Both the position numbers and the translations under genes were made by a program. Positions 18,727 to 56,655 of a stretch of 62,593 nt of DNA are shown piece after piece (the first letter of the stretch is position 1; the number at the start of each line of letters is the position of its first letter). The stretch is from a virus, in the IMG/VR virus record IMGVR_UViG_3300036785_000450, positions 1-62,593 of that record; one strand, 5' to 3'. A model generated the notes under the pieces. That model saw only the letters and a list, made by a program, of their open reading frames with translations. It had not been told where the DNA came from and searched no databases.

Positions 18727-21162
18727 TTAGGCAACCGAATAGTGAGTGGCTATCTCACTGGCACTGAGGGCGCGACTGTATATGGCGACATGGGCGATAT
18801 CCCCGCTGTAATAGCCACCGCCAAAGTAGGTGTGAGCAATCCGCCAGTAACGGCTCCCACCAGTGGATCCACCATTGGTAGCGCTGTTTACCAACCTGCC
18901 GTCCCGATAGAGAGACAAGGTGAGTGAACCATCAAAACTAAACACGGCGTGATGCCAGTTGCCATCGTTGGTATTGATTGTGTCAGTAGCGACCTGGCCT
19001 GTCCCGCCAAAGCTGTAGCCACGCAAAATCTGACCGTTGAGCAGATATAGGGTGGGGGTATAAGTGCCAGAGGGCGCTACCCCAGGGGCAGACGAGTTGT
19101 GCTCGACCATACCTCCTGGCGGTGTAACACTGGTGCGATACAAGCACTCGATTGCCCAGGCTGTGGGCTGGCTGTACGGATTTGATGCCACGATCTCACC
19201 CGTACTCCCGTCAAAGTTGACTGCGCCGGGTTGCCCCCAAGGGTCAGTAACACCGAAAGTAACTCCACCGTAGAACTGACCCAGGTTATTAGCTATTAGC
19301 TCAGAGGCCGCACCCGGATTCGCTGGGTCGTTCAGGGGCCAGTAGAGAACCGGTGAGGAAGCCATTACTGCCGCCCGATAGTTGCTGGGAGAGGGGGTGA
19401 CAGGAACAACGGTCATACCTGCGTTCGCGCTCAGGGACACACCGCTGCCGGGCTGCGCCTCAGCGATCATGGTGGTCACGGCCCCCATGCCTACCGTGGC
19501 GTAGTCAAAGGCCTGGGTGGTGGCGTCGATGTCCAGATCAGCCTGGGTGTCGAGCATCCACACCCCGGGTCTGGGATCATCGGCGTTGACGATCATGGTG
19601 CTGGTCACGCCCATCCAGACAGCAGGGCTCAACTGAGGGGGCAGCACACTCACGCCGACGATGATGTTGTCCCAGTAGGTGGCGCCCAGTTCGCTGGCTA
19701 GCGCGATATACGGGCTGAGTGGCGGGCCGATTGGGATGGAGTAGACGAAGACGCCGTCGACGGTCAGGGTCAGGGTGGTGGCAGACACGCTGACCGCAAT
19801 GGTGTGCCAGGTGTTGGGCGTGGATGCGCTAGGCCCGCCATAGAAACTTGAGAACGCTGCACCCCAGCCGGTGGTCGTGCCGATCCCGTTCTGGCTACCG
19901 CTACGGGTGTCGACCCGGGCGAAGTAGCCGACCCCGGCCGAGTTGCAGCCGAAGTACAGGTCAGCAATGTATCCGGTCGGCACCCAGACATCGGCGCTGT
20001 AGGTGGTCAGGACTCCGACGTTGCGGGTGGCCTGCACGTTGTTCGGCACGTTGTAGCTAGGGGTCGGATTGCCTTGGGCGACAGTCGAAACAAAACCGGA
20101 GCCGGTTGCGGCCCAGGCGCTCGCCGTCAAACCGGTGTCGAAGATGGTGGTTGTCGTGACTGGAGGCGTGACAGGGGGTGGGCGGGGGGTGTAGCTCTCG
20201 GGCACGAAGTTGAGATACCAGGACGTGTCCCAGGTGTCGCCCGCAGCGATGACCGGTGGCGGTCCCTGCCCTGCCACGGTGTAGGTCACCTGGAGACCCA
20301 GGTCGATGAGGGTCGCGCCGTCAGCGGCGAAGGTCTGGTTGTTGGGGACGTTGAAGGTGATCGGGGAGCCAGGAGTGCGGGGAATATCCAGCACGATCTG
20401 CTGCTCACCGTCCAGGGGGCCACCCTGAAGCATCAGCTTGACGTAACCGGAGTCCCCGAACTTGCACAGCGTCTCGCCGGTCATTCCCACTACACCGAAG
20501 AACCACTTGCCGTTTCGGTAGTTTGAGGCCACCTGGGCGGCGGTGAGGGCGAAGTCGTAGACGGCGACCTCGTCAATCACCCCGGCGAAATAACTGGCGC
20601 CGCCCGAGGAGTGAGCCTCCTGACCGACAGTCAATACAGCCGTCGTTGACATCGCCCCGAACTGAGCATCAGTCACGTTTGACGTGACGTCCACCCCGTT
20701 TAGGTAGAGATGGTTGATAGCTGCGCTCTTAGTCCATACGCCGTGATAGGTGGTGTTGGGCACGATGACAGTCGTGCCCGAGTTACAAATATTGGCTACG
20801 TATGAGGCTAAGGCTGCTAACTGGTTGCCATTCAACCGTAAAACCGGCTCGCCGGAGTCGAGACTGATCAAGGCCTGAGCACCGGCCACCGTCGATGCCC
20901 GGAACCAACACTCCAGTGTAAAGGTATTAGGGTCACTCGTAGTAATATGCGGACCCAGGCCGATACCGGTCGTGCCGTCGAAGCTCACCGCCGGATCTGC
21001 GTCGCTGTTCAACAACGAGGGCTGCTGAAGGATGACACCACCACTGTAGGAGCCGTTGCGACCGTGCCCAGACGTGTCGGTCATGACTCCCGGCTGTGAG
21101 TCATCAAGACGGTAGTAGACCAACGGTTGCAAGGACAGCACGCCATCGGAGTACAAACTCAT
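18727..21162 (-). CDS. Large LamG/concanavalin-like adhesin or fibre protein, 811 aa
   Basis: Three concanavalin-type beta-sandwich regions can be seen. One lies near residues 10-230 (YYRLDDSQ, FDGTTGIGL, TLECWFRA, IDEVAVYDFALTAAQVASNY), a less typical one near 350-510, and one near 630-811 (LYWPLNDPAN, FDGSTGEIV, NWHHAVFSFDG, ending IYSRALSASEIATHY). Such domains bind carbohydrate and are common in receptor-binding or decoration proteins of phages. No signal peptide or membrane anchor is present. The start is placed 7 nt after TACGCT. The repeat fibre at the right end of the window has a similar LamG domain. A virion role is inferred. Confidence 0.75.
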   Translation of the reverse strand: MSLYSDGVLSLQPLVYYRLDDSQPGVMTDTSGHGRNGSYSGGVILQQPSLLNSDADPAVSFDGTTGIGLGPHITTSDPNTFTLECWFRASTVAGAQALISLDSGEPVLRLNGNQLAALASYVANICNSGTTVIVPNTTYHGVWTKSAAINHLYLNGVDVTSNVTDAQFGAMSTTAVLTVGQEAHSSGGASYFAGVIDEVAVYDFALTAAQVASNYRNGKWFFGVVGMTGETLCKFGDSGYVKLMLQGGPLDGEQQIVLDIPRTPGSPITFNVPNNQTFAADGATLIDLGLQVTYTVAGQGPPPVIAAGDTWDTSWYLNFVPESYTPRPPPVTPPVTTTTIFDTGLTASAWAATGSGFVSTVAQGNPTPSYNVPNNVQATRNVGVLTTYSADVWVPTGYIADLYFGCNSAGVGYFARVDTRSGSQNGIGTTTGWGAAFSSFYGGPSASTPNTWHTIAVSVSATTLTLTVDGVFVYSIPIGPPLSPYIALASELGATYWDNIIVGVSVLPPQLSPAVWMGVTSTMIVNADDPRPGVWMLDTQADLDIDATTQAFDYATVGMGAVTTMIAEAQPGSGVSLSANAGMTVVPVTPSPSNYRAAVMASSPVLYWPLNDPANPGAASELIANNLGQFYGGVTFGVTDPWGQPGAVNFDGSTGEIVASNPYSQPTAWAIECLYRTSVTPPGGMVEHNSSAPGVAPSGTYTPTLYLLNGQILRGYSFGGTGQVATDTINTNDGNWHHAVFSFDGSLTLSLYRDGRLVNSATNGGSTGGSRYWRIAHTYFGGGYYSGDIAHVAIYSRALSASEIATHYSVA

Positions 21163-21169
21163 ACCCGCG

Positions 21170-21175
21170 AGCGTA
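21170..21175 (-). promoter_or_regulatory. Leaderless -10 of the LamG gene
   Basis: TACGCT on the minus strand ends 7 nt before the ATG at 21162, the spacing of the other leaderless starts. No CTGAC box was found 23 nt upstream. Confidence 0.45.
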
Positions 21176-21280
21176 CCGAGCACCACCCCCACCTCGTGGA
21201 CACCTGACGATCCTCTCCTCCCGGGAGAAAATCGTCACGGCCCCTCCCTCAGTCAGGGTGGCTCTGCCAGGATCGAGCCC

Positions 21281-21769: not shown

Positions 21770-21904
21770 TCAGGTCAGCAACCGCACCACCAAGGCGATG
21801 GTGAGGACGACGGCGACAAGGAACAGGGCCAACAAGACCAAAATGACGCAGCCGTCCGATGGTAGGTCATCACCCTCTTCACTGCATGGTTCGTCGGATG
21901 ACAT
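21770..21904 (-). CDS. Small membrane protein, 44 aa
   Basis: An acidic N-terminal 17 residues (SSDEPCSEEGDDLPSD) followed by one hydrophobic helix (residues 19-40: CVILVLLALFLVAVVLTIAL and onward) and a short tail. It begins inside the end of the previous gene (26-nt overlap in another frame), with AAGGCAGAGG upstream. Membrane insertion is predicted; function unknown. Confidence 0.55.
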   Translation of the reverse strand: MSSDEPCSEEGDDLPSDGCVILVLLALFLVAVVLTIALVVRLLT

Positions 21905-23318
21905 CCTCTGCCTTATCAGGATCGACTCGCCGCAGCGTCTCGGTTCTGGCCTCCCCGAACAGCTTGCTCAGGACACCAGTCTGCGCTCGTCCCTCGACCG
22001 TCACCTTGAGGAAGTCCCGGTTGTCCTGAATGTCCTTGACAGACCGGGTCATGGACATGAACCGGTCCAACTCTGACGACAGGTTGGCGTCAGGGTACCC
22101 ACCTTGTAGCTGCTCAGCCAGGAAGGTGAACTGGAGGCGCTGGCCCTGCATCTCCAGCAGGCTGTACAGGACGCCCAGTAGTTGGTCACGGTTACGGATC
22201 TCCATCGGGATCCGGTACTTGCAAGAGGAGCCCGCCTCGTACAGGGAGCAGACCACGGCTAGGGCGCAGGAGTCACATTTCCGCAGGTCAGCCGTCCCCA
22301 TGTGGGCGACCAGGCTCGTCACGGCAGTGGTGCCGGGACCATCCGGGTTGGCGATGGTGGAAGTTACCGGCCGGTAATCGAAGACCGGCAGTGGCTGGCG
22401 CCCGTCACCGTCTGCGAGCACTTCGGCATGATCGTGACCAACTAACTCCACCGCCGTCGAGCCGTTGTCGGAGACTCGCCCGTTACCTTCGGGAGTTGAT
22501 CCCACTCGCTCAGGAGCCTCCAGATGGGCCTCCATCTGCCGCCAGGCCCAGATGGTGTAGCGAGACACCTCAGTACCAGCATCGGCCAGGATGGCGTCGG
22601 CGTTAAAGCCCATCTGGGTGAAGTGCTGGCGATGCCGGGTGCGGATCTTGTCCTTCTCATCGGCCGGGTAGCGCCGCAGGCGGTTCTGGTCCCAGATGAC
22701 GGTCTCCCCGAATCTCGTTGGCGAGATCCAGGAGGAGCTAAGTAGCGTGGAGTACAAGCCGCCAGGCGCATCATACGGATGGCTGAAGGACAGCCCGTGC
22801 AGGTTGAGTCTTGTGCGTCTGACTAGGGAGGATAGGACGTTCTGAGTCCGTATGGCGACTGGCGGCACACCCAGATTGCTGTAGTGCTCCGCTATCTCCC
22901 TAAGCGCAGGGCCACCCTGGTACTCATGCCAAATGGGCACGAACTTGTCGTCAGCCAGACCAGCCCATACCGCCCGCTGTGTGGATAGCCAGTCCTGACC
23001 CAGGCTCACGGCGTCGTACTCGGTGAAGAAGGTCAGCCGCTCCAGGTTCTGCTGGACGAAGTCCACGTAGTCGGACAGGAACTCCTCGTGCTGGCTGACA
23101 GTCCATCCCTTCTTCTCGGTGCTCGTAGCACCCGACACCAGGAAGATCTTCTGATCATCAGGGAAGTGATCGGCCAGCAGCCACTGCTTTTTCGGTAGCC
23201 GTGGCTTCAGGTGCAGATAGTTGATCGCCACATGGGGGACATGCTCTTGCACCAGCAGCTTGCGCCAGGCAGGCACCTCAGCCCCGGCAAAGTACAACTC
23301 CAACTTGCGTAGGTTCAT
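21879..23318 (-). CDS. TIM-barrel-like protein fused to a Cys-rich conserved domain, 479 aa
   Basis: The first 270 residues resemble phage TGT/DpdA-like alpha/beta barrels: LELYFAGAEVPAW at the start, a FLVSGATS turn, a FFTEYD strand and FVPIWHEYQGG, then helices. The C-terminal 140 residues carry CDSCALAVVCSLYEAGSSC and a long helical part ending near a conserved QTGVLSKLFG, a domain I recall from actinophage proteins of unknown function. DpdA-type enzymes insert deazapurines into phage DNA; no queuosine-precursor pathway gene is visible here, so this activity is not claimed. The ATG overlaps the WhiB stop (ATGA). Confidence 0.55.
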   Translation of the reverse strand: MNLRKLELYFAGAEVPAWRKLLVQEHVPHVAINYLHLKPRLPKKQWLLADHFPDDQKIFLVSGATSTEKKGWTVSQHEEFLSDYVDFVQQNLERLTFFTEYDAVSLGQDWLSTQRAVWAGLADDKFVPIWHEYQGGPALREIAEHYSNLGVPPVAIRTQNVLSSLVRRTRLNLHGLSFSHPYDAPGGLYSTLLSSSWISPTRFGETVIWDQNRLRRYPADEKDKIRTRHRQHFTQMGFNADAILADAGTEVSRYTIWAWRQMEAHLEAPERVGSTPEGNGRVSDNGSTAVELVGHDHAEVLADGDGRQPLPVFDYRPVTSTIANPDGPGTTAVTSLVAHMGTADLRKCDSCALAVVCSLYEAGSSCKYRIPMEIRNRDQLLGVLYSLLEMQGQRLQFTFLAEQLQGGYPDANLSSELDRFMSMTRSVKDIQDNRDFLKVTVEGRAQTGVLSKLFGEARTETLRRVDPDKAEDVIRRTMQ

Positions 23319-23590
23319 CCTGCCCTCTGATCGATCCTGAAGGGAGACTGGGTCAGCGTGTGACGAGTCCCCGTCCACGATAGACGCAGAGGACGCCGCT
23401 CCCGCTCCGAGGTACCGCCCCAGATGCCCCAGCGCTCGTTGGTCGAGATGGCGTACTCCAGACACGTCTGGCGCACCGGACAGTGGGAGCACACCGCCTT
23501 GGCGGCATCGACGTACTCCCCCCGCTCAGGGAAGAACATATCCACGGCCATACCAGCGCAAGCGGCGTCTTTCCGCCACTCATGGTTCAC
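23315..23590 (-). CDS. WhiB-family iron-sulfur regulator
   Basis: The 91-aa protein has the four conserved Cys (C11, C34, C37, C43; layout C...CxxC.....C), the FFPERG segment and the GIWGG turn (55-59) followed by a basic tail (SERERRPLRL). WhiB proteins bind a 4Fe-4S cluster and usually act with the actinobacterial primary sigma factor. Phage copies can alter host transcription or superinfection. It starts at the overlap with the membrane-protein stop (ATGA). This is the best host marker in the window. Confidence 0.93.
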   Translation of the reverse strand: MNHEWRKDAACAGMAVDMFFPERGEYVDAAKAVCSHCPVRQTCLEYAISTNERWGIWGGTSERERRPLRLSWTGTRHTLTQSPFRIDQRAG

Positions 23591-23802: not shown

Positions 23803-24246
23803 TTACTCATGCCGTTGAGCCTCCACTGACGGGCCGTAGTACCCGTACTCGTTCAAGTCATCTCCGGCGAAGCGGACGTGGTGGGCCGGTACCTGGGCCT
23901 TGATGGTGGGCAGATCCTGGGCCGGATCGGTCGGGTGCTTGGCGTGCTCAGCGGCGTAGCGACCCGACAGCGTGACCCAGTCTCCGGTGTTGATATGCTG
24001 TATACCCCTGGGGGCGGCTCGATAGACAGTCACTGGTCGTTCGGGCTGCCCCCGGACACGGCGCATCTGGCGGATCGACTCCTGGGGGTGCTCAGTGCCG
24101 GTGTAGTACTGCGGGTGCTCGTAAACGTCCAGCCCCTCCATAATGTTGCCCTTCTGGGTCATGTCGTGCAGGGGCGGGCCTTCCGGGTTGGGTTGATGGT
24201 GACCCCGGTACCCGAACTGATCCCCAGAGAGGGCGTCCCGACTCAT
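23803..24246 (-). CDS. Tagged ADP-ribosyltransferase-like protein, 147 aa
   Basis: Begins with the tag MSRDALSGDQF. The C-terminal 75 residues (VTVYRAAPRGIQHINTGDWV, TLSGRYAAEH and DDLNEYGYYG) follow the layout of ART-type domains of phage polyvalent proteins: a VYRA strand with Arg, a TLS strand and an E-x-G-Y end (R-S-E pattern). Transfer of ADP-ribose from NAD+ to a host target is the family activity; the target is unknown. The ATG overlaps the end of the preceding tagged gene (4 nt). Confidence 0.6.
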   Translation of the reverse strand: MSRDALSGDQFGYRGHHQPNPEGPPLHDMTQKGNIMEGLDVYEHPQYYTGTEHPQESIRQMRRVRGQPERPVTVYRAAPRGIQHINTGDWVTLSGRYAAEHAKHPTDPAQDLPTIKAQVPAHHVRFAGDDLNEYGYYGPSVEAQRHE

Positions 24247-24518
24247 TGCTCCACCCGACGAACTACCCGGACTGGATGCTTGGTCCGACGAGATTCCAAT
24301 TCAGGGATGTGCGCCAAGGCAGGATCTGTCTCGTGCTCACCCAAAGGCTCAACCTCGTAGAGGTACCGTCCATAGTTCCCAGAGGTTGGCTCAGTTTGGT
24401 TACCAGCAAAATAGACGTGAGGATCTCTGCGGCCCTGGGGATCGAGTACCTGCCCCGGCTCAAAGACATGGGTTGAGCCGTGGAAGAACTGCTGAGGGCT
24501 CAGCACCTCGTGACTCAT
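24243..24518 (-). CDS. Tagged Arr-like ADP-ribosyltransferase, 91 aa
   Basis: Tag MSHEVLSPQQF is followed directly by FHGSTHVFEPGQVLDPQG, HVYFAG, and YLYEVEPLGEHETDP. This is the pattern of the rifampin ADP-ribosyltransferase (Arr) family: HGT near the start, a VY strand, then Y-x-VEP-x-G-x-x-x-x-DP. It is short (Arr is about 140 aa), so it may be a minimal domain. The start overlaps the upstream tagged gene by one base (TGATG). Confidence 0.65.
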   Translation of the reverse strand: MSHEVLSPQQFFHGSTHVFEPGQVLDPQGRRDPHVYFAGNQTEPTSGNYGRYLYEVEPLGEHETDPALAHIPELESRRTKHPVRVVRRVEQ

Positions 24519-24655
24519 CAGTTCGGCCCCTGCCCCACGTCCTCGTCCTCCTTCTCCGGTATGACGTTCTGGGGATCGGGGGAGTCGATGGACTTCTCTG
24601 CGGGCAGATCGGTCACACCTGCGAACTGCTGACTGGACAGGACTTGGTGACTCAT
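24518..24655 (-). CDS. Tag-only small protein, 45 aa
   Basis: Almost nothing but the tag: MSHQVLSSQQF, then a short acidic, disordered tail (VIPEKEDEDVGQG). There is no folded domain, so it looks like a carrier of the N-terminal signal itself. It overlaps the acetyltransferase-like gene upstream (ATGA) and the Arr-like gene downstream (TGATG). Confidence 0.6.
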   Translation of the reverse strand: MSHQVLSSQQFAGVTDLPAEKSIDSPDPQNVIPEKEDEDVGQGPN

Positions 24656-25053
24656 CGGATCTCTACACCCAGATCTCGTAGGTGACTCTCAGCTTCAGGC
24701 ACCGTGGGCTGACGGCGTTTGGGCAACCGGTCACCAGTGGAGCGAGCCCAAGCCTCACCGGCTTCGGTGCGGTCGGGGGAGTGCCGAGGCGGGCGCACAC
24801 CACGGGTCTCCCCGGCGATCCGGCGAGCCTCACCCAACAGACTGGTGGCGACACCCTGGCGGCGCACCTCGGACAGCACCTCGATGTTGCCGATCTCACC
24901 GGTCTTGTGGTGCCACATGATGCTGCCGATGGACATCGGGGCGCCTCCACCGTAGACCCGAAGCTCGTGATGGGGGCGGCTCTCCATCTCCTTCGGCTTG
25001 GCCTGGCGGAAGGCGTAGGTGAACTGCTGAGGGTTGAGCGCTCGCTGACTCAT
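24652..25053 (-). CDS. Tagged GNAT-type acetyltransferase, 133 aa
   Basis: Tag MSQRALNPQQF, then a GNAT core: IGSIMWHHKTGEIGNIEVL (strands), EVRRQGVATSLLGEAR (the R/Q-x-x-G-x-G/A acetyl-CoA loop and helix) and HSPDRTEAGEAWAR, a C-terminal motif typical of phage GNAT proteins. It should acetylate an unknown target with acetyl-CoA. The 210-aa protein at 55517 has the same tag and the same HSP.R...GE..A ending. Confidence 0.7.
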   Translation of the reverse strand: MSQRALNPQQFTYAFRQAKPKEMESRPHHELRVYGGGAPMSIGSIMWHHKTGEIGNIEVLSEVRRQGVATSLLGEARRIAGETRGVRPPRHSPDRTEAGEAWARSTGDRLPKRRQPTVPEAESHLRDLGVEIR

Positions 25054-25403
25054 CAGTCCTCTGGCCTCTCCGGGAAGTCCTCCACGTCGTGCTCTCGTAC
25101 CACCCGCATCGGGTGGAGGCTACGAACAGATCCCTTCCCTCCTAGTGTGGGGTCAGCCTCGATGGGGCCAGTCGGCTCGACCTCATAGATCCGAGGATTG
25201 CCACCGTACTTCCGGGATCCACCACCGGCATACTGAGCGTACGTCCGTGCCCAGCCACGCTGTGAGGTGGCGTAGACATGCTCATGCCGCATGACATGGA
25301 CAGGCTCATGACCGGGTTCCACATGCTCACCGGGCTTGAGGTCGGCTCCCGTGCCATGGAAGTACGGTCCAAACTGCTCGTCGTTGAGAGCCTCATGACT
25401 CAT
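25053..25403 (-). CDS. Tagged Arr-like ADP-ribosyltransferase, 116 aa
   Basis: Tag MSHEALNDEQF, then YFHGTGADLKPGEHVEPG, HEHVYATSQRGWARTYA, and RIYEVEPTGPIEADPTLGG, a close match to the Arr layout (HGT-x-x-x-L-x-x-G-x-x-x-x-PG, VYxT, IYxVEPTGPIExDP). Arr enzymes use NAD+ to modify small molecules or proteins. The target here is unknown. The ATG at 25403 overlaps the upstream stop (ATGA). Confidence 0.75.
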   Translation of the reverse strand: MSHEALNDEQFGPYFHGTGADLKPGEHVEPGHEPVHVMRHEHVYATSQRGWARTYAQYAGGGSRKYGGNPRIYEVEPTGPIEADPTLGGKGSVRSLHPMRVVREHDVEDFPERPED

Positions 25404-26401
25404 GAACGCCACTGCTTGCCCAGCAGAGCGCTACCTGGCTGCTCAGTGCTGAAGGCGAAGACGTGCTTCTGCTGACCCCCTGCGGTGGTGTAGCTAGTCC
25501 GAAAAGTCTTCTCCCGGTCGGGATATAGCTCCTCAAAGGCTTTCCCCCGCCGAGGATCAGCCTGCGACCACCCAGGGCCTTCACCCTTGTCGAACTGCTC
25601 ATGCAGTCCCTGCTGACGGCCCTGGGGTGCTGACCCAGATGACCAGCGCTCCTTGATCTTCTCCTCGGTGTGCTCAGGGGCCTTCTTGGCTGCCCAGGCG
25701 ATCAGGGGGTGGACCTTCTCACCCCGCTGCTGAGCGGCCTGCACCATCTCCCGGTGGGTGGACAAGAAGCCCTTGCGCTGGGGCGCCCCGACCGAGATCG
25801 AACCGGCATTCTCGACCTTGTTCTCGTAGAGGTAGCCGGTGGTACGGCCTCCATAGGACTGGCCTCCCCAGGAGCCATATCGGGTAGGACCAAGCTCTCG
25901 GTGCCTGGTGACATCGGGCTGCAAGTTTTCGGGGCCTTCCACCGGACCAGTGATCCGCAGAGGATACATGTGACCAGCCATGCCCTCCTTGAGGCCCCGA
26001 CGCTTGATGTTGGCCCCTACGCGCTGGCGGGCCGCAGCCTCGGTACCGGCGTGGAAGCCTTCACCCCTCCCTACCCCACTACCACCCAGGCGACCCTGAG
26101 GGCCACCCTTGGTCACCCGGCCATGCCACCACGTCCGGGGATCGGCGGCGAACTGGTCCGGTGTCTGCTGGTGGGCCTCCATGGCCGGGATCTTCTCTGG
26201 GTCGAACAGTTGCCCCTGGCTCTGTCCCTGGGGCTTATCTAACAGACCGTGACCGTGATATTGAGCCCATGGCGTGTCAGGATGGCCCTTTGCCCAGGCC
26301 AAGTCAGCGTCTCTCTTGGGCTGCTCATGCCGTACCCTGGCCTCTTCCGGCCCACCCGTAAACCCATGAAACTGGGCGCCGAGGGACTCCTGGGCGCTCA
26401 C
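25400..26401 (-). CDS. Tagged ART-like protein, 333 aa
   Basis: The N-terminus MSAQESLGAQF is a variant of the tag. The centre has TWWHGRVTKGG, GFHAGTEAAARQR and HMYPLRITGP, resembling ART-type domains with a WHG-R start and a G-F-H-x-G-T-x-x-A-A segment. Next comes YLYENKVENAGSISVG, then a basic, disordered C-terminal 100 residues. Function inferred; target unknown. It overlaps both tagged neighbours by 4 nt. Confidence 0.5.
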   Translation of the reverse strand: MSAQESLGAQFHGFTGGPEEARVRHEQPKRDADLAWAKGHPDTPWAQYHGHGLLDKPQGQSQGQLFDPEKIPAMEAHQQTPDQFAADPRTWWHGRVTKGGPQGRLGGSGVGRGEGFHAGTEAAARQRVGANIKRRGLKEGMAGHMYPLRITGPVEGPENLQPDVTRHRELGPTRYGSWGGQSYGGRTTGYLYENKVENAGSISVGAPQRKGFLSTHREMVQAAQQRGEKVHPLIAWAAKKAPEHTEEKIKERWSSGSAPQGRQQGLHEQFDKGEGPGWSQADPRRGKAFEELYPDREKTFRTSYTTAGGQQKHVFAFSTEQPGSALLGKQWRS

Positions 26402-26637
26402 TCCTCACCCTCTCCCATCCCCTCCTCCTCACCACCACCAGGACGGCCCTGACCGAAGGCGGTGCCAGAGGGCATGGCACGAACGGCGGTGAGATCGTGA
26501 GAGAAGGACGGCTTGAAGACGTTGGCGGTCATGTTCTGCACACCCCGCACCCGGGTCGCCAACTCGTCCATGTTGCCCTGCTCCAAGATGCTGCGTTCGG
26601 TGTTGAACTGCTGGTTCGACAACACATTGCTGCTCAT
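26398..26637 (-). CDS. Tagged small protein, 79 aa
   Basis: Tag MSSNVLSNQQF, then a short helix and a Gly/Glu-rich C-terminal tail (GGGEEEGMGEGEE). No enzymatic domain is visible. Like the 45-aa gene, it may serve as packaged cargo or as an adaptor. Coupled to the HNH gene upstream (ATGA). Confidence 0.6.
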   Translation of the reverse strand: MSSNVLSNQQFNTERSILEQGNMDELATRVRGVQNMTANVFKPSFSHDLTAVRAMPSGTAFGQGRPGGGEEEGMGEGEE

Positions 26638-27068
26638 GATCTCACCTTCCTAGCCTGATATCGGCGCTGTGCTTCCCGGTTACAGACTCGACATACTCGT
26701 ATCGGTCCTCTGCCAGTCACATACTCGTAGACGTTCTCTGGCGTACGAGGATGACCGTTACGGCAGGCCAGGGTGCGAGACCGGAACACGTTGACTTGGT
26801 GCGTAACCGCTTCCAGATGGTTTGGATTGGCACAGTGCGGGTGACGGCAGAGATGGTCAAGTTCCAGGTCTTCCGGTATCTCTCCGATGAACATCTGGTA
26901 GGCCCACCTATGCACTTTTTGCATCGGCTCTCTCGTAACTGGACGAAACTTGGCATAGCCATCAGGAGAGAGCGGTCCCTGCCAGAGCCAACAACCATCC
27001 TCTGTCACGAGGATTTTTGACCAGAACCGTTGGAGCGGCGTGCCAAGGTAACCGGGGTAGACAGTCAA
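26634..27068 (-). CDS. HNH endonuclease (HNH_3 type), 144 aa
   Basis: RFWSKILVTEDGCWLWQGP, GYAKF, then HRWAYQMFIGEIPEDLELD, HLCRHPHCANPNHLEAVTH (the HNH zinc/metal core) and a second Cys set, CRNGHP and CRVCNREAQRR. This is the common free-standing homing-type HNH protein of actinobacteria and their phages. The TTG start overlaps the previous stop (TTGA). It has no tag although it sits inside the tagged cluster, so it is probably a later insertion. Confidence 0.85.
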   Translation of the reverse strand: MTVYPGYLGTPLQRFWSKILVTEDGCWLWQGPLSPDGYAKFRPVTREPMQKVHRWAYQMFIGEIPEDLELDHLCRHPHCANPNHLEAVTHQVNVFRSRTLACRNGHPRTPENVYEYVTGRGPIRVCRVCNREAQRRYQARKVRS

Positions 27069-27586
27069 CTTCGATCAGGCTCCTGTTCAAAAAGCCTTGG
27101 GTCGGTAGCCTTCAACTCCCTCTGGCGAGTTATTTCCTCGTCAATCTGCTCCCAGGGACGGGGCAGTCTTTTCTTGTCGGGGCGGTACTCGGCCCACCGG
27201 TAGCTGGGGTTGGTGAACAGCAGGGCGGGGACACCCAGTTCGGTCACGATGAGGACGGTGGCCGGGTCAGCGGACACGATCAGACCCAGGTCATGGCCCT
27301 CACGACGCAGGTAGCTAGCCTGCTCAGCCCTGACCACCGAATCGGACATATCCGCCCATTCCGGCTCACGCACCAGCAGCCGGGTGTAGAAGGCGGGGCT
27401 GGTCATGCCGTTGACCAGGAGCCAGTGCTCAGTGGCGTGCTGGTCGAGGCTGACCGTCCCGAAGGTCAGGTTGTAGCCGGTGCGGAGGGCGTGAGCCAGC
27501 TTGACCCCGTCCGGGATGGGGTAGAACCCGGCCAGAGTGGAGTGGTCCCCGAGCACTCCCTCGATGCACACCAGGGCCGTGCTCAT
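27065..27586 (-). CDS. HAD-like protein, 173 aa
   Basis: VCIEGVLGDHSTLA at the start, a TVSLDQHATEHWLL strand, the LIVSADPATVLIVTELG strand-loop and an end with KKRLPRPWEQID. The layout suggests a HAD-type fold, but the first catalytic DxD is written IEG, so activity is doubtful. ATG at 27586 is preferred to a longer frame. It starts 2 nt after the preceding gene. Confidence 0.45.
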   Translation of the reverse strand: MSTALVCIEGVLGDHSTLAGFYPIPDGVKLAHALRTGYNLTFGTVSLDQHATEHWLLVNGMTSPAFYTRLLVREPEWADMSDSVVRAEQASYLRREGHDLGLIVSADPATVLIVTELGVPALLFTNPSYRWAEYRPDKKRLPRPWEQIDEEITRQRELKATDPRLFEQEPDRS

Positions 27587-27588
27587 GG

Positions 27589-27813
27589 CTAACTGCTGTA
27601 CTGACTGGCCCTGGAGCCCTTGTTGGTCATCTGATCCGGTGCGTGCGGATAAGGCTGGGTCTGGCCGAAGTGCGTCACCCAGGACTGCCGGAGCAAGCTG
27701 GGCCACTGCCCAGGGTCACGGGAGCCATTACTGGAGTCGTAGAAGGTCGACCAGTTGGTGGCCTTGGGGGAGCGACCTGGGGAGGAACGCACGACTTTTC
27801 GTGCGATGCTCAC
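27589..27813 (-). CDS. Hypothetical protein, 74 aa
   Basis: Ser-, Pro- and Gln-rich, probably disordered; no family recognised. The GTG start overlaps the end of the ParB-like gene (GTGA) and the stop lies 2 nt before the next gene, so it fits the operon. Composition is unusual; coding status is likely but not certain. Confidence 0.5.
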   Translation of the reverse strand: MSIARKVVRSSPGRSPKATNWSTFYDSSNGSRDPGQWPSLLRQSWVTHFGQTQPYPHAPDQMTNKGSRASQYSS

Positions 27814-28079
27814 CGGACCACCCTGACCGGCATCTTGGTAGCCCCCGACTCCAAGGCCCCGCCATACCGATGATGACCGTCGATCATGCGATACCTTCCC
27901 TGGTAGGGAGCCACTAGGGGAGGGGTACCGTCACTGGCCCCCCGTCGAGCGATGTCCATAACCTTGGCGTGATCGAGATGAAGCTGGGTGGCATCGATCC
28001 TGTCCAGGCGCACTGAACGAATAGGCATTTTCGGGTTGGGCTTTTTTGCGAACTGGGCTGTAGACAGGGGCACGCTCAC
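27810..28079 (-). CDS. Tagged ParB/sulfiredoxin-like protein, 89 aa
   Basis: Begins with the tag in a one-residue-shorter form (MSVPLSTAQF), then a ParB-type core: VRLDRIDATQLHLDHAKV, PPLVAPYQGRYRMIDGHHRY (the conserved G-x-Y/H-R box, residues 61-72) and a final VRVV strand. ParB-like folds occur in DNA-binding proteins, CTPases, kinases and DNases. The role is unknown. The GTG is 6 nt after TAGGCT, so this gene opens the whole minus-strand cluster. Confidence 0.65.
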   Translation of the reverse strand: MSVPLSTAQFAKKPNPKMPIRSVRLDRIDATQLHLDHAKVMDIARRGASDGTPPLVAPYQGRYRMIDGHHRYGGALESGATKMPVRVVR

Positions 28080-30836: not shown

Positions 30837-31292
30837 GTGCTCAGTCCTCGACAGTTCGGTGGCCTCAGCGGTGAGTTGCGGAGCAAGGGTGGCTTCACGG
30901 TCAACGTCCACACTGGCGAGCGGCCTACCAGCGGGTACGTGGTGGCTGACCTCCAGGGCGAGAGGAAGATGCCCTTGCGTGGCACCACCGGGCGGGACAT
31001 CCAGGCATATGCCGAGACCAAGGGAGGGAAGCGGCTCACTGGCCCCCACCGGTACCTGGGCGGCTGGGCTGACAAGGGGGCCAAGCCTCAGCAGGCCGTG
31101 CTCGACCGCTCCACCCACTACCCAGAGACACCTTGGGGCCAGAGCAAGTCGTACGTCAGGATGGTGGCGAACTTCCAGAAGGCTGCCTACCACGTCACCA
31201 GCGCCACCAGCGGCACCGACATCGATAACCCGGCACACATGGACGACCCGGTCAAGCGGATGCGGCGGTTCCGGGGAGAGAATGTCGGGTAG
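30837..31292 (+). CDS. Tagged phage protein with GGFTVNVHTG domain, 151 aa
   Basis: Starts VLSPRQFGG (GTG start), which is the core of the shared tag (L-[SN]-x-x-Q-F) without the leading MSxx. The rest (GGFTVNVHTGERPTSGYVVA, YLGGWADKG, then a helical end) resembles a domain I recall from phage polyvalent-type proteins. Function unknown. TAGCGT ends 6 nt before the GTG, so a leaderless message is likely. Confidence 0.6.
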   Translation: MLSPRQFGGLSGELRSKGGFTVNVHTGERPTSGYVVADLQGERKMPLRGTTGRDIQAYAETKGGKRLTGPHRYLGGWADKGAKPQQAVLDRSTHYPETPWGQSKSYVRMVANFQKAAYHVTSATSGTDIDNPAHMDDPVKRMRRFRGENVG

Positions 31293-43858: not shown

Positions 43859-45375
43859 CCTCTGAACGCCTTCGGGTTGTTGAAGCCAGAAGGCTGTCCA
43901 GGAGCGAGAATGGTACCGCCCTGACCTTGCGGAAAGTTGTCTGGACCGTTGATCAAGGGGTTCATGATGTCAGCGCCCGCCAGGAAGGGCAGATACACCT
44001 TCATGACTCCGACGTCGCAGGTCGCCTCGATGGGGACCATATCCTTGGAGAACAGGGTGTAGTTGTAGTTGAAGGTGGAGATCAGGCCTTGGAACTGATA
44101 GGACTTGTCTCCCCCGAACACGACCTGAAGAGGCATTGCCTGAGGTGGCCGGGAACCGGCACCATTAATGCCCAGGCCAGCGTTTCCTGACAGCGTCTTG
44201 CTGTTGGGATACAACTGGTCAGCGTCATACATCCCCATCAGTCGCTCTATAGCCCTGATGTCCCAACGACACCCGATGTCAGAGGGACCAGGCCCACCGT
44301 CCTTGGGGTTCTTGTAGCCCCCCATGAATACCTCGTACATGCGGTTGAAGATCAGCGAGAAGCTGATGGACTGTTGCGACACCCAGTAGGGTCCGACCTG
44401 GAGCGCAGTGGGGTCAGTCTGGGATGGAGCAGTGGCGTCTGCGGTGATCGAGCAGTCAACCGAGATGTTCAGTGGGTTCATCATGAAGTAGCAGGCGAAT
44501 GGACCACCCTTACGTGCCTTGAAGGTGCCCTTCGACGGATCACCACTGCTGGAGGTGGTGTTGGTGTCGTACATCAGTTCCGACATCCCGCCCCGTATCA
44601 GAAGTTGATTGGGCATATACCCAAAACCGCCCGCCGCATTGCCCGCTGTCACCTTGCCTGCGAACTGAGGAGAGAACGGAAGATTGTTCCGAGGGTCAGG
44701 ATAATCCCAGGTACCGGCAGTCTGGGCAGCCTTCTTGCCCTCATCTGTGGTGAGGTCAGGGAGCTTGCCTACTGTCTGCTTGAAGTTCGGGAACGCCTTG
44801 CTGTAGCCGGTGCCGGTCGTGCTGTTGTTACTGGCACCGCTGCCACCGCCACCACCGCCGCCTCCTCCACCGGGACCGGTCGTACTACCCCCACCTGAGG
44901 CACGCTTGACCCCCCGGATAGGCTCCCTGCTGTCGCCCTGGAGATCCAAGCCAACAATCCTGACCACCTGACCGGTGTAGGGGGCCTCGATCATCTGCCC
45001 GCCCCCGGCGTACATCCTGACGTGAGCGTTCTCACCATCGTTCCCAGGAAGGAAGTAGAGGACGAGATCCCCCACCTCCAACTGGCTGGCGAGGTCGGCC
45101 GCACTAGGCTGGCCGGGTAGGGGGTTGACGGCGTCGTAGAGGGTGAACAGCGATGTCTGGTTGTTCCACTGATCAGTGGTGGTGCGCCCGATCTGCAAGT
45201 GCGGACCCTGGGCGTACGAGTAGACCATGAGACCGGAGCAGTCAAACGTGTTCGGTCCCTGAGACCCGTACACATAGGGTTTCCCCAACTGCTCCTGAGC
45301 TATCGCGAACGCCTGATCACCAGGCTTTCCAGTACCAACGTCGATGGCCGAGGTGGCGGTGGTGGCAGACATCAC
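43855..45375 (-). CDS. NlpC/P60 baseplate/tail protein, 506 aa
   Basis: An N-terminal NlpC/P60 peptidase domain with catalytic FDCSG (Cys near residue 46) and AHVRMYAG (His near residue 117), then a Gly-rich linker and a C-terminal tail-structural domain (residues 200-506) of the contractile-tail kind. It should cut peptidoglycan stem peptides during DNA entry. Coupled to the tape measure gene by ATGA. Confidence 0.8.
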   Translation of the reverse strand: MMSATTATSAIDVGTGKPGDQAFAIAQEQLGKPYVYGSQGPNTFDCSGLMVYSYAQGPHLQIGRTTTDQWNNQTSLFTLYDAVNPLPGQPSAADLASQLEVGDLVLYFLPGNDGENAHVRMYAGGGQMIEAPYTGQVVRIVGLDLQGDSREPIRGVKRASGGGSTTGPGGGGGGGGGGSGASNNSTTGTGYSKAFPNFKQTVGKLPDLTTDEGKKAAQTAGTWDYPDPRNNLPFSPQFAGKVTAGNAAGGFGYMPNQLLIRGGMSELMYDTNTTSSSGDPSKGTFKARKGGPFACYFMMNPLNISVDCSITADATAPSQTDPTALQVGPYWVSQQSISFSLIFNRMYEVFMGGYKNPKDGGPGPSDIGCRWDIRAIERLMGMYDADQLYPNSKTLSGNAGLGINGAGSRPPQAMPLQVVFGGDKSYQFQGLISTFNYNYTLFSKDMVPIEATCDVGVMKVYLPFLAGADIMNPLINGPDNFPQGQGGTILAPGQPSGFNNPKAFRG

Positions 45376-48300: not shown

Positions 48301-48656
48301 GCAGCGTCGATTGACCAACCCTGGGCGTTTAAAGCGTCGCCGGTCTGGCCGCTACTGGGCTGACTCCAAAAAGGTTGAGTCTGACCAGCGCCAGTACCAG
48401 GAGCACCACCCGGGGCACCACCACCTGGGGCACCACCGAACTGCGCTTGAGCCATGGCGCCCGACATGCCCTTGATCTTGCCCACCATGGCGTCAATGGC
48501 GCTGTTGATGTTAGCGAGATCTTTGGTCGCACTCTTACTGAGAGTATCGAAGCAGCCGGTGACCCCGGTCAGTGCATCACAGATCTTCTTGATGGCGGCA
48601 GCGAACTCAGTCGGCCCTTTGCTGTCGAAGAGACCTACGCCATATCCGTTCGCCAT
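45372..48656 (-). CDS. Tape measure protein with tail lysozyme domain, 1094 aa
   Basis: A long helical, Gly/Ala/Pro-rich protein typical of tape measures. Residues near 872-997 (AYNFLLAKGLTDFQAAGVVG, NFVQESHVDP, GGGIAQWIGSRWTALTALA, QLDYLWQELTG) form a phage lysozyme-type domain that cuts glycan strands. Two 33-residue repeats with EHAKHDITNWLK[DE][IV]PIIGAL lie near residues 590-660. The ATG overlaps the chaperone stop (TAATG). Length sets tail length: about 1090 residues fits a tail near 150 nm. Confidence 0.88.
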   Translation of the reverse strand: MANGYGVGLFDSKGPTEFAAAIKKICDALTGVTGCFDTLSKSATKDLANINSAIDAMVGKIKGMSGAMAQAQFGGAPGGGAPGGAPGTGAGQTQPFWSQPSSGQTGDALNAQGWSIDAAPKPDSKTGGAPPSMPPGTAGGGPGNFPKPPTGTAGPNKPPGGSMLNKAWPMVSAAAGAADKFTQGAGGSMISAAVQGATIGQMLAPAFGVSPKSMYVIPGGTLAQNPQDYALSNYYATMNMGVAPNTPNWSTVQKGAQQLMALVPNMSRQGAMQAQNAMQQPQTINSALAVGLNLRPGGQLQTPEQQYAQIFNRLTMGGKVDAKTFEAMMAPGGPGQVNLASLGYTPGSDQYLGFMQYSLTRLGMQKQGKSMVDVGTAAGVSAAGLNTPYMSQLQAQSAKSQLESRAEPGLAQAAKNLNQAAASLLKIVGPLGSLFGGAIGGASKMLGPVNDILKLFTGGKFQSGGTVDGPLNKAMLAIVHGGERVITPGMGAEGQSSLGGSCGCGKGFGGFPGLGSIGNVLGDVGGFFKHLLGGIHMPSVGSIPGAGLLGRVGGDIGQWGEDVGQWGKDVGNIPGKAFGAVDRFGRRIGGDVMGAGEHAKHDITNWLKDIPIIGALFGGSVFGAAKGTVEHAKHDITNWLKEVPIIGALFGGSIFGGAKGLVHGAGHRVSGAAHTVGHWGSSLFQGAEHLGSSLLHGVTGLFGHHKKGGDTAIEILSKKLSDIKDTALYSLLTPVPKGSILEALTTGPGGGKPVAPTTPQHQQPAPKQTGPQPSSHKGGISGFLGGLGSALGGLGQQLFGVSPAAAATTTPSAPKTSAAYQWTYQRPTNQAVDLSWMYAGGSSTTQTSSGNGGTPNAGSPASAGGGANATGSSNAQKAYNFLLAKGLTDFQAAGVVGNFVQESHVDPTTAGGGIAQWIGSRWTALTALAKQENKPTSDLGVQLDYLWQELTGPEAGSLSALRASTDVVSAATAFQTSFERAGIPMMQNRIKYAQNILASKGASYARGTQLIARNQLAMLHRGEAVIPAADNYSAMPYNKNGAVGGSGAVHLDFRAGSVVLQVPANATQSQMEDIANQFVKAISKPQLLTAARSQ
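46683..46880 (-). repeat. Two 99-bp tandem repeats in the tape measure gene
   Basis: The segments starting at 46683 and 46782 are close copies offset by 99 bp, encoding EHAKHDITNWLK[DE][IV]PIIGAL and FGG[SA][VI]FG[AG]AKG. This is an in-frame duplication of 33 residues. Confidence 0.8.
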
Positions 48657-53088: not shown

Positions 53089-54258
53089 GTGTCGATGAAT
53101 CAGTCGGGCCAGAGCGGCATGGGCGTGCTCGCCACCACCACCACGCCTGGCACCACGGTGGTGTCCGGGCTACCCAACCCCTACGACATCACCGCAGGCC
53201 AGCCAGGACAGTACCCCGACACCGACCAGGGGCTGCCCTACCCCCCGGTCGACCCCTCTTCGACCCAGCGGATCGCGCAGCTAGCACGGCTCCGACTGCG
53301 GGACCTGCCCCGGCCGTTCCTGTGCCGTCAGACGTGCTCCGGGGCAGCCTGGCGCTTTGAGCTACCGGTGGAGAACGTGTCGGCCGCCAACCTCCAGGTG
53401 GTGCTGACCGACACCACCCAGGGGGGTACTACCGGCCTCACGCTGGGCAACGACTACGTCCTGGACGAGCATGGCGGCACCTTGGTCTTCAGCGCAGCCC
53501 CTCCTGGGGGGCTGCTCATGGTGGCGCAGGGCACCTACTACCGGGACTTCCTGCCTGCCGAGCTTGACCTATACGTGCGGACCGCATATATACAGCACAC
53601 CTACGGGACCGACCCGCCCGAGCACATCGACCAGGGCTTCCCACCCGCACCAGGGCCTCCACCCCTGGGCACCACCGGCCAGCCCGTCAGCTACGGCACC
53701 CCGGCGCCCATGATGATCAGCGAGGTGGAGGAGTACCCCATCTCCATCCTGGTCACCATCATGGCCCTGTGGGACATCGCCGTGGGATTGGCCCAGCAGC
53801 ACGACGTCCACACCCCCGATGGCGTCACCATCCCGCTCAGCCAGACCTTCAATCAGGTCACCAGCATGATCGGCCAGCTTCAGCAGCAGTACCTGATGCT
53901 GTCGAGCGCCCTGGGCGTGGGACTGTACCGCATCACCCAGTCGAGGCTGCGGCGCATGTCCCGCACCACAAAGCGGCTGGTGCCGATTTTCCGGTCGAAG
54001 GAGTACGACGACATCACCTGGCCCCAGCGGGAACTCCCACCTGTTGATGTCACCCAGAAGATGTACACCTACCGAGGCACCTGGGATCCCGAGGCCAACT
54101 ACCAGGCCCAGGATCTCATCGATTTTGAAAATCATCGGTACGTGGCGCTCCAACCCAGCACGAATATCGACCCCACCAGAGACGTGGATCCCAAGACCGG
54201 GCAGGGCTACTACTGGCAGTGGACCACTCTGAATACCGGATGGGTTGGCTGGTGGTGA
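53089..54258 (+). CDS. Virion protein with carbohydrate-binding-like end, 389 aa
   Basis: A beta-rich middle (VVLTDTTQGGTTGLTLGN, FLPAELDLYVRTAYIQHTYG), a long helix (TFNQVTSMIGQLQQQYLMLS) and a C-terminal 60 residues (YRGTWDPEANYQAQDLIDFE, YVALQPS, YYWQW) like a CBM5/12-type chitin- or glycan-binding module. Probably a neck, collar or fibre-attachment protein. The bases encoding its last residues recur at 55482. Confidence 0.6.
   Translation: MSMNQSGQSGMGVLATTTTPGTTVVSGLPNPYDITAGQPGQYPDTDQGLPYPPVDPSSTQRIAQLARLRLRDLPRPFLCRQTCSGAAWRFELPVENVSAANLQVVLTDTTQGGTTGLTLGNDYVLDEHGGTLVFSAAPPGGLLMVAQGTYYRDFLPAELDLYVRTAYIQHTYGTDPPEHIDQGFPPAPGPPPLGTTGQPVSYGTPAPMMISEVEEYPISILVTIMALWDIAVGLAQQHDVHTPDGVTIPLSQTFNQVTSMIGQLQQQYLMLSSALGVGLYRITQSRLRRMSRTTKRLVPIFRSKEYDDITWPQRELPPVDVTQKMYTYRGTWDPEANYQAQDLIDFENHRYVALQPSTNIDPTRDVDPKTGQGYYWQWTTLNTGWVGWW
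54240..54256 (+). repeat. 17-bp direct repeat, left copy
   Basis: ATGGGTTGGCTGGTGGT, at the end of the 53089 gene. An identical copy at 55482-55498 lies just before the 55517 gene, so the two frame a 1.24-kb segment holding the nuclease-fused tagged gene. Confidence 0.8.
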
Positions 54259-54292: not shown

Positions 54293-55477
54293 ATGTTCGG
54301 TCAACGATTCAACCGCTGGGAAGTCATCGACGGGCCTGATCTCAGCAACCCAACCCATCCAAAGTGGCTCTGTGAGTGCGAGTGCGGCACCACACGCTGG
54401 GTGCAAGCCCAACTTCTTCGTAGCGGGCGATCCCAGTCCTGCGGGTGCCACAGAAAAGAACAGGCTACGACTCACGGACAGTCCAAGACCAAGCTCTACC
54501 GTGTCTGGGACACGATGTGGGCACGCTGTACCAATCCAAGCAACCATCGCTACAAACACTACGGAGCACAAGGGATCGAGGTCTGTGAGGAATGGAGCCA
54601 GTTCTCCACCTTCTGGGAATGGGCAAAAAAGTCTGGCTACCAGGATGGCCTCACCATCGAGCGCAGTGACAACGATGGTGACTACACCCCGGAGAACTGC
54701 ACCTGGATCCCCAAGCGCAGCCAGCAGCGCAACACCCAGAAGAGCCTACGTGTCACCGCCTGGGGCGAAACCAAGGTGCTGCCCGAGTGGATCGAGGATG
54801 ACCGCTGCTCGATCAAGTACCACACGCTCTACGCCCGCCTACAGCATGGCTGGACCCCTGAGGACGCCATCGGTCTGCCCTACGGAGCTAGAGGGCGTGT
54901 GCCCGTGAGTCGGAACGCCTTGAACTCCGGGCAGTTTCTCCAGGGGCCGAACGAGACAAGCACCATCTCTAATGTCGTCAATCACCTACAGAACCGTCTT
55001 GGACCGCAGCACGGTGAAGAACACTTCGTGGTGCAGTCCGGTTCTGGACGCATCCTGTCACGCCTCAAAGGCCGTCCTGGCGCAGGCGAGATCGATACCG
55101 GCAAGATCCCGACCAAGAGGTTGGCAGGAAACATCTCGGTCCATAATCATCCTGGTGTCTCTAAGGGTGCCTTGTGCCCTCATTCCGAGAACGACCTGAC
55201 AAATGCTCTTGCTGTTGGGGAACGACGATCCATCGTGGTTACAAAGCCAGGTGTTCACACTGTCGAGGTACGTCATCCGACAGATGAACGTGATCATCCA
55301 GACTTTGAACGACTCCTCGACAAGGCTGAGAGACTTGAACAAGATCTGCCTATTCGGCCTACTCCTCATAACGAAAAACAATACGGACAAGCTGTGCATG
55401 GAAGACTTGGACAACTGGCGCAAGAGCATTCACGGTGGATGTCTTACCATTTTGAACCTCACGAAAGTGAAGTCTGA
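54293..55477 (+). CDS. Homing-type nuclease fused in frame to a tagged HNHPG protein, 394 aa
   Basis: Residues 1-200 are a free-standing homing-type nuclease (LCECECGTTRWVQAQLL, RCTNPSNHRYKHYGAQGI, ERSDNDGDYTPENC, then SQQRN), nearly the twin of the gene at 56680. Residue 205 is an in-frame GTG (54905), from which VSRNALNSGQF reads as the shared tag. It is followed by a domain with NISVHNHPGVSKG and later DLTNAL, like JAB/MPN-type peptidases or related phage domains. The native tagged protein would be 190 aa from 54905; the nuclease appears to have joined its 5' end, keeping frame. Confidence 0.65.
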   Translation: MFGQRFNRWEVIDGPDLSNPTHPKWLCECECGTTRWVQAQLLRSGRSQSCGCHRKEQATTHGQSKTKLYRVWDTMWARCTNPSNHRYKHYGAQGIEVCEEWSQFSTFWEWAKKSGYQDGLTIERSDNDGDYTPENCTWIPKRSQQRNTQKSLRVTAWGETKVLPEWIEDDRCSIKYHTLYARLQHGWTPEDAIGLPYGARGRVPVSRNALNSGQFLQGPNETSTISNVVNHLQNRLGPQHGEEHFVVQSGSGRILSRLKGRPGAGEIDTGKIPTKRLAGNISVHNHPGVSKGALCPHSENDLTNALAVGERRSIVVTKPGVHTVEVRHPTDERDHPDFERLLDKAERLEQDLPIRPTPHNEKQYGQAVHGRLGQLAQEHSRWMSYHFEPHESEV

Positions 55478-55516: not shown

Positions 55517-56149
55517 ATGAGCCACAGCGCCCTCAACGGTGAGCAGTTCCATGACCACGTCCACCCCCACCAGCTAGCCCTGCCCGGCATGGAGCACCTG
55601 GCTCACCCCTGGGCCGGTCCCCTATCCCGTGGCTACATGCTGGGCTTTGAGTCAAGCGCTTCTGAGCACCACCTGCGGGCGGTGGACGTGTCCCATCCGA
55701 AGTACCCGACAGAAGCAGCGGAACTGGACTGGAAGAGGAAGAAGTCCCAGCACCCCGGCGAAGTCGCCATGGTGATCAACCTCCAAGGAAGCTATGGAGT
55801 CGATAAGGCAGAACGAGCCAGGGGCTTGGCCCCAGCGCTCTTCCACTCGGCTCACTACTTCAACTTCGGCCAGGAGACCGTGCCCATCCACTCACCGTTG
55901 CGGTCTGAGGAGGGGGAGCACTTCGCCAACAAGGTGCGCCCCGATCTCAAGCCCGACGTCTGGCACAACTACGTGACCGGGGTTGAGCAACGCCAGGCTG
56001 GAAAACCTAGAGGCGAACCCGCTGCCTGGGAGGGCGTGCATTACGGCCTCCATCCCTTTGAGCGAGCCGAGCAGGCGAAGCAGGAGCAGACCAGGAAGAA
56101 GCAGTCAGGCAAGTTGCAGTCTCGATCCTCACAGGGACGCCTGTTCTGA
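55517..56149 (+). CDS. Tagged GNAT-like protein, 210 aa
   Basis: Tag MSHSALNGEQF, followed by a GNAT-type layout: a beta start, LAPALFHSAHYFNFG and HSPLRSEEGEHFANKV, parallel to the HSPDRTEAGEAWAR of the tagged gene at 24652. The C-terminus is basic and disordered (KQEQTRKKQSGKLQSRSSQG). Probably an acetyltransferase-like effector. Ends with ATG overlap to the next gene (TGATG). Confidence 0.6.
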   Translation: MSHSALNGEQFHDHVHPHQLALPGMEHLAHPWAGPLSRGYMLGFESSASEHHLRAVDVSHPKYPTEAAELDWKRKKSQHPGEVAMVINLQGSYGVDKAERARGLAPALFHSAHYFNFGQETVPIHSPLRSEEGEHFANKVRPDLKPDVWHNYVTGVEQRQAGKPRGEPAAWEGVHYGLHPFERAEQAKQEQTRKKQSGKLQSRSSQGRLF

Positions 56150-56655
56150 TGCCCCTCTACACCTCGGGCTGGGAACAGAAGAACCAGATGCTCCGCATGA
56201 ATGAGATCATGCGGAACTACGGCCGCTACTGGGGCGAGAACGTGCTGTGGGCCGAGTACAACGCCATGGCCTCCACCAAGCACCGGGTCTACGACGAGGG
56301 ACCGTCACGAGCCTGGTATCCGCCCGTGGTGCTGCCGGTCATCTTCCTCGACTTCCGCCAGGACGACCCCATCGACTCGGAGGAGGGCTTCTACGTCCTG
56401 TCCACGGCCAGCATCGTCTTCCAGATCACTGAGGCCAACGACCGGTTCCGCACCAGCCCACTCCAGACAGCGGCGCACTTCCGGGACCGCTTCAGCTACG
56501 ACAACGTCGTCTATCGGGTGTCCAAGTACGAGAAGCAGGGCTTTGTCCACGGTCAGTATCTCACCGTGAGTGCCCTGGGCGAGCAGGTCAAGGCCGAAGA
56601 GGTTGTCAATGATACCCAACAACAGGATTTCTTTGTACAACAGATGACATGGTAG
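56149..56655 (+). CDS. Neck/tail-joining-type protein, 168 aa
   Basis: Beta-rich with aromatic residues (YPPVVLPVIFLDFRQDDP, GFYVLSTASIVFQI); similar in look to baseplate or neck completion proteins, but no family assigned. It sits between the tagged gene and the second homing nuclease. Confidence 0.55.
   Translation: MPLYTSGWEQKNQMLRMNEIMRNYGRYWGENVLWAEYNAMASTKHRVYDEGPSRAWYPPVVLPVIFLDFRQDDPIDSEEGFYVLSTASIVFQITEANDRFRTSPLQTAAHFRDRFSYDNVVYRVSKYEKQGFVHGQYLTVSALGEQVKAEEVVNDTQQQDFFVQQMTW

Follow-up and report, generated by a model that had tools for sequence, protein, structure and literature searches.

Why would phage genes that encode unrelated proteins all begin with the same short peptide? 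The question is raised by a gene cluster at positions 23803-28079 of IMG/VR virus record IMGVR_UViG_3300036785_000450, a stretch of 62,593 nucleotides that was analyzed at its full length and is referred to below as the window. The first-pass annotation of this DNA described eight minus-strand genes in the cluster that share an N-terminal tag, and read the tag as a signal for loading effectors into the virion. The observation of the tag is confirmed here, and the phenomenon is larger than first described: judging by the genes alone, the tag marks some 60 small proteins, belonging to many unrelated kinds, in a set of uncultured relatives of Streptomyces phage BRock. The tag itself is, on balance, probably a portable address label, that is, a putative signal that loads proteins into the head of the virion for injection into the host.

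An N-terminal tag in the window and in related contigs

All eight starts reported for the cluster (24246, 24518, 24655, 25053, 25403, 26401, 26637 and 28079) exist as claimed (Table 1). Gene 25403 begins with an ATG that lies three codons into an open reading frame (ORF) whose first start is a GTG at 25412, and two of the genes, 26401 (MSAQESLGAQF, with SLGAQF) and 28079 (MSVPLSTAQF), carry variants of the tag. When the six reading frames of the window were searched for the pattern L[SN]xxQF, 10 matches were obtained, each of them N-terminal: seven of the eight genes listed earlier and three additional tagged genes, at 30837, 54905 and 55517, which are located on the plus strand outside the main cluster. 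The extent of the system was thus underestimated at first. With a fuller, start-anchored pattern, the window and its IMG/VR relatives, 15 contigs in total, were found to contain 60 tagged starts, compared to 0, 1 and 0 for three control patterns. Across the 747 kb of tag-bearing contigs, L[SN]xxQF occurs 48 times at N-termini and 7 times elsewhere, whereas 13 control motifs, summed over the same contigs, yielded 30 N-terminal matches and 57 elsewhere, so that the N-terminal position of the tag is not due to chance. Most of these contigs were selected via the tag itself; the window was not, and two other contigs that were reached through an ADP-ribosyltransferase (ART) domain, L079 and L081, contain 5 and 3 tagged genes, respectively.

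Degenerate DNA patterns derived from the tag match a small set of IMG/VR contigs, many of which contain further tagged genes. Judged by their major capsid protein (MCP) or tail genes, nearly all tag-matching contigs that could be placed are BRock-like; G012 is related more distantly, and the two tags assigned to it are less certain. A search of bacterial and archaeal genomes (257 Gb) gave 17 scattered matches in unrelated contexts, which we consider to be chance occurrences. No description of the tag was found in the open-licence papers that our literature search covered.

The tag spans about 11 residues, with the consensus MSHRALNPEQF. Among the 40 standard copies, the general form is M-S-[HRQ]-x-[AV]-L-[SN]-x-[EQ]-Q-F, where position 4 is variable, often R or E, and position 8 is variable, often P; a form shorter by one residue, ALGxQF, recurs as well (ALGEQF, ALGMQF, SLGAQF). 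The L, Q and F of the tag are essentially fixed while their codons vary freely, and at position 7, both Ser codon families are used and Ser is also swapped with Asn. Given this variation at synonymous sites and between the Ser codon families, the tag is conserved as protein rather than as DNA. The exclusive use of AGY for Ser2 stems from the search pattern itself and was not counted as evidence.

A hydrophobic staple combined with a capping box is the textbook start of a helix. The residues L, N/S, P, E/Q, Q and F of the tag can be read as the N', N-cap, N1, N2, N3 and N4 positions of such a start, with L and F forming the staple, S/N and Q the box, and N1 often occupied by Pro, which suggests that a short capped helix might be the docking surface of the tag. 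Mimicry of a capsid protein was considered as well, given LTASQF in the BRock MCP and LSAAQF in the G011 MCP, and was rejected because this segment is missing from other MCPs. Separately, VLR[FY]EQF is conserved near the N-terminus of the MCP in BRock-like contigs (for example, G001 101149-102177); its resemblance to ALNPEQF is probably a coincidence.

Protein domains that follow the tag

After the tag was trimmed, 52 proteins fell into 17 groups without mutual similarity detectable by blastp, although some of the ART-type groups may share a fold. The earlier statement that the tagged proteins have nothing in common past the tag thus holds for most pairs and fails for the two Arr-like proteins, 24518 and 25403, which are related to each other. 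The tagged proteins are short, with one domain each where any is recognized. Support from Pfam is available for Arr, GNAT (25053) and ADPrib_exo_Tox (G008 81470, 3.9e-9), and is weak for an M91-type peptidase; it is weak also for the HExxH peptidase-like proteins (G006 1794, G008 9796 and G008 82105), and the zinc ribbon of G001 27540 is a weak match, as are the ParB-like matches of 28079 and its relatives. The 17 groups and the different Pfam families bear out the view that the tag is modular and joined to different domains, whose kinds are those known from injected phage effectors.

The Arr-ms match of gene 25403 scores 48 bits against a curated cut-off of 25, with gene 24518 falling below it at 22.8. 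Gene 25403 resembles rifampin ADP-ribosyltransferases (Arr) both in this match and in its matches to Arr structures, but differs from them in that its N-terminus is tagged and in that it belongs to a phage operon of tagged proteins. Neither Pfam nor PDB yielded a match for the JAMM-like protein of gene 54905, and the AlphaFold model of the 26401 family (predicted local distance difference test, pLDDT, 38) gave no usable fold. A search for related loci with the 79-aa protein encoded at 26637 yielded no confirmed locus.

The only tagged protein that was confidently modelled is the product of gene 24246 (mean pLDDT 84). Its residues 1-15 are disordered (pLDDT < 50) and are followed by a confident domain, so the tag is not part of that domain; taken together with the different Pfam families, this shows that the tag does not belong to one common fold; such a fold was what the first-pass annotation had named as fatal to its proposal. 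Among the relatives of 24246, the Y-R, S and E positions are invariant. Comparison of the model with a viral structure library gave firm matches to domains in further phage proteins, including one with a polyvalent-associated annotation, and comparison with PDB gave weak matches alone, several of them to ADP-ribosyltransferases (E 0.1 or worse). The protein is called ART-like here because of the residue pattern and the weak PDB matches, the link to the viral library providing no named fold.

Neither the presence nor the form of the tag is constant within a domain family. In L079-L081, the 24246-type ART is a separate protein with a tag; in L082-L084, it is embedded without a tag in ORFs whose lengths are at least 1121, 1441 and 1546 residues. 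The L083 ORF also encompasses NUDIX, DUF7178, a second ART, GNAT regions and possibly a zinc ribbon, with a match between its GNAT and the tagged one. In gp173 of Gordonia phage Skog (374 residues), the same GNAT and ART families are fused, again without a tag, and the gene is located four genes upstream of the tail sheath gene. Untagged relatives of the 24246 ART also include Myrna gp78. Within the peptidase-like family, the tags are MSHRALSTQQF, MSQRALSTQF and MTSPEVVNDTQF, and the G005 member is untagged; the orthologs of 26401 start with MSAQESLGAQF, MSALESLGAQF, LHPEQF or MSQRALNAEQF. The tag is therefore portable.

A second motif, QG[KRQ]LF, occurs in the tagged proteins, with 10 matches of Q-x-x-[LF]-F compared to 0.54 in shuffled sequences. 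It is found in the window at 25400-26401 (minus strand) and at the C-terminus of 55517-56149 (plus strand), in G003, G004, G005, G006, G007, G008 and L003, and also in neighboring cargo-like proteins, several times as the exact C-terminus. The motif resembles the beta-sliding-clamp pentapeptide QL(S/D)LF, which is usually C-terminal (PMC9690074).

Putative loading into the virion and the alternatives

The tail of the window phage is contractile, as seen from its genes for a sheath, a tube, a tape measure and a baseplate hub, and the sheath, tube and neighboring genes are related to those of BRock; in comparison with cultured phages, the window DNA shows no similarity at the level of near-identity. 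In the related contigs, the MCP is ~65-76% identical to that of BRock, and the terminase, portal, scaffold and MCP genes follow each other in the BRock order. Several tagged genes are located inside virion gene blocks, in the surroundings of the terminase, portal, scaffold, capsid and neck or tail genes, which agrees with the packaging proposed by the first-pass annotation. Such genes lie between the homologs of BRock gp143 and gp142 in the window (54905 and 55517), G003, G005, G006 and L003, between the terminase and the portal (G008 9796), between the portal and the scaffold (G006 1794), and after the MCP gene (G011 13147 and 14052).

A parallel is offered by phage T4, in which the first ten residues of internal protein IPIII suffice for head targeting and can carry foreign proteins into the head (PMC9026906). 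The internal proteins of T-even phages are diverse such that the capsid targeting sequence (CTS) alone is conserved (PMC3012670). The likeness lies in some ten N-terminal residues common to otherwise unrelated host-directed proteins, known in the present case from the genes alone; furthermore, T4 Alt is an injected ADP-ribosyltransferase, and the tagged set also includes ARTs. By analogy, the tag would bind a part of the assembling virion, namely, the scaffold, the portal or the coat, and the tagged proteins would be built into the particle, ejected with the DNA and act on the host at once, like the T4 internal proteins and Alt.

Another point of reference is provided by the polyvalent proteins of phages and conjugative elements, single polypeptides in which 2-15 effector domains are combined (Iyer et al. 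2017, PMC5512222). They share with the tagged proteins the kinds of domains (ART, Arr, ADPrib_exo_Tox, ParB-like, GNAT, HExxH peptidase) and, with the exception of the main cluster, the context of late or virion genes, and large multidomain ORFs include domains directly related to the tagged GNAT and ART. The tagged proteins, however, are separate, small and individually tagged, and are not classed as polyvalent proteins because the defining multidomain polypeptide is missing. The tagged set could instead be seen as a polyvalent protein taken apart, each domain travelling separately under its own label. A broader scheme, which we put forward tentatively and would not quite call probable, is that the tag is an address code for virion cargo that is unlike the T4 CTS in sequence and apparently operates without a prohead protease of the T4 or HK97 type. 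Any effector gene could then become cargo by gaining the tag, and the polyvalent protein would be replaced by swappable, single-domain injected effectors, some of them with QG[KRQ]LF.

Several observations weigh against loading into the head. The main cluster is located outside the head and tail block and adjoins a tRNA-guanine transglycosylase-like gene. The cultured BRock-like Streptomyces myophages (BRock, LuckySocke, GiJojo, Alone3 and pSt2308) have related MCP, portal, terminase, scaffold, sheath and tube, but the canonical tag was not found in the inspected parts of six BRock-like records, including 100 kb of BRock. The sole candidate is AMG[AS]QF, contained in the starts of BRock gp37 and LuckySocke gp188 at the corresponding locus, which could be a divergent form of the tag. 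The tag has no sequence similarity to the T4 CTS (MKTYQEFIAEA in IPII and IPIII and MKTFKEFTSTT in IPI, compared to MSHRALNPEQF), and a prohead protease of the S77/S78 type (Peptidase_S78, S77), which could remove the tag, was not found in five tagged genomes, records that may be fragments, in a search confined to these two protease families. The tagged phages further differ from T4 in their scaffold-type head module and in the wider range of enzyme domains. Given the lack of sequence similarity and of a detected S77/S78 protease, the tag is not classed as a T4 CTS, even if it works alike. Thus, the proposal that the tag is a loading signal retains a real and modular tag, diverse effector-type domains and virion-block neighbors, and loses the sequence likeness to the T4 CTS, such that the parallel with T4 holds for logic and length.

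Among the alternatives, the one that fares best, although we regard it as unlikely, is that nothing is packaged and the tag is a docking peptide inside the infected cell, where it recruits new anti-host or anti-defense proteins to one phage or host factor (a hub complex, the polymerase or the replisome). Such a role would fit the location of the main operon away from the head genes, and the resemblance of QG[KRQ]LF to the beta-clamp pentapeptide suggests a use of short docking motifs by these proteins. It would explain poorly why several tagged genes are surrounded by terminase, portal, scaffold, MCP and neck or tail genes, and why relatives in other phages form part of large multidomain fusions, for which delivery together with the DNA has been argued (PMC5512222). 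Still less plausible, in our view, is loading into the tail (tube lumen, baseplate or tape-measure complex), as in contractile injection systems. The tail is indeed contractile and, in several contigs, the MCP gene is farther from the tagged genes between the gp143 and gp142 homologs than neck and tail genes are, but other tagged genes adjoin the terminase, portal, scaffold and MCP genes, and the products of the at least 10 cargo genes in the window would be hard to fit in the tail lumen. Finally, that the tag is a mere common gene start, a translation leader or a homology arm for recombination whose peptide has no role, is very improbable: the genes from 27706 down to 23803 do form a single chain with overlaps of 1 or 4 nt and HNH endonuclease genes adjoin tagged genes, so that gene exchange is likely, but the L, S/N, Q and F are kept while the codons vary, including both Ser codon families and Asn at position 7, and, at the DNA level, the tags are not nearly identical between genes or between genomes.

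If loading into the head is the function of the tag, virion cargo would be predictable from sequence, and any gene that starts with the tag would be a candidate for an injected effector, including proteins of 45-80 residues without a recognizable domain. The tag would then be a second, apparently independent example of the CTS principle of T4, would show how polyvalent effector proteins can break up or assemble, and could be used as a short peptide to load chosen proteins into phage particles.

Neighboring genes in the window

Table 1 Tagged genes of the window and features adjoining them.
Coordinates	Strand	Feature	N-terminus	Length (aa)	Evidence or remarks
23803..24246	-	ART-like	MSRDALSGDQF	147	phrog_2579 9.9e-31
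24243..24518	-	Arr-like ADP-ribosyltransferase	MSHEVLSPQQF	91	Arr-ms 1.1e-4, just below cut-off
24518..24655	-	acidic protein	MSHQVLSSQQF	45	homolog in G007
24652..25053	-	GNAT acetyltransferase	MSQRALNPQQF	133	relatives fused to ART: Skog gp173, L083
25053..25403	-	Arr-type ADP-ribosyltransferase	MSHEALNDEQF	116	Arr-ms 1.5e-12; PDB 2hw2 7.5e-7
25400..26401	-	no known family; contains QGQLF	MSAQESLGAQF (variant)	333	orthologs carry differing tag forms
26398..26637	-	conserved acidic protein	MSSNVLSNQQF	79	homologs in five related contigs
26634..27068	-	HNH endonuclease			HNH_3 1.8e-12; 4-nt overlap with start of tagged gene 26637
27810..28079	-	ParB-like	MSVPLSTAQF	89	weak matches
30837..31292	+	protein with GTG start	MLSPRQF	151	orthologs in G001, G003
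53089..54258	+	ORF with BRock gp143 homolog (virion gene block)			homology
54293..54904	+	HNH-type endonuclease-like frame			in frame with tagged ORF 54905-55477; G008 homolog has its own stop
54905..55477	+	JAMM-like H-x-H...S-x-x-D; GTG start	MSRNALNSGQF	190	motif by eye only
55517..56149	+	protein ending in QGRLF	MSHSALNGEQF	210	linked to GNAT cluster
56149..56655	+	BRock gp142 homolog (virion gene block)			homology

At both sites in the window, HNH genes abut tagged genes, and these endonucleases may drive the exchange of cargo genes. The gene at 21879-23492 (minus strand) encodes a queuine tRNA-ribosyltransferase-like protein (phrog_887) that is ~31% identical to BRock gp36 and to the product of a GiJojo gene annotated as dpdA-like; modification of the DNA with 7-deazaguanine through this gene is possible. 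Two large ORFs, one at 18727-21192 (minus strand) that matches virion structural families and one at 60255-62570 (minus strand) that appears lectin-like by eye, possibly encode host-binding proteins. The tape measure protein (45372-48656, minus strand) contains a Phage_lysozyme2 domain (6.5e-30).

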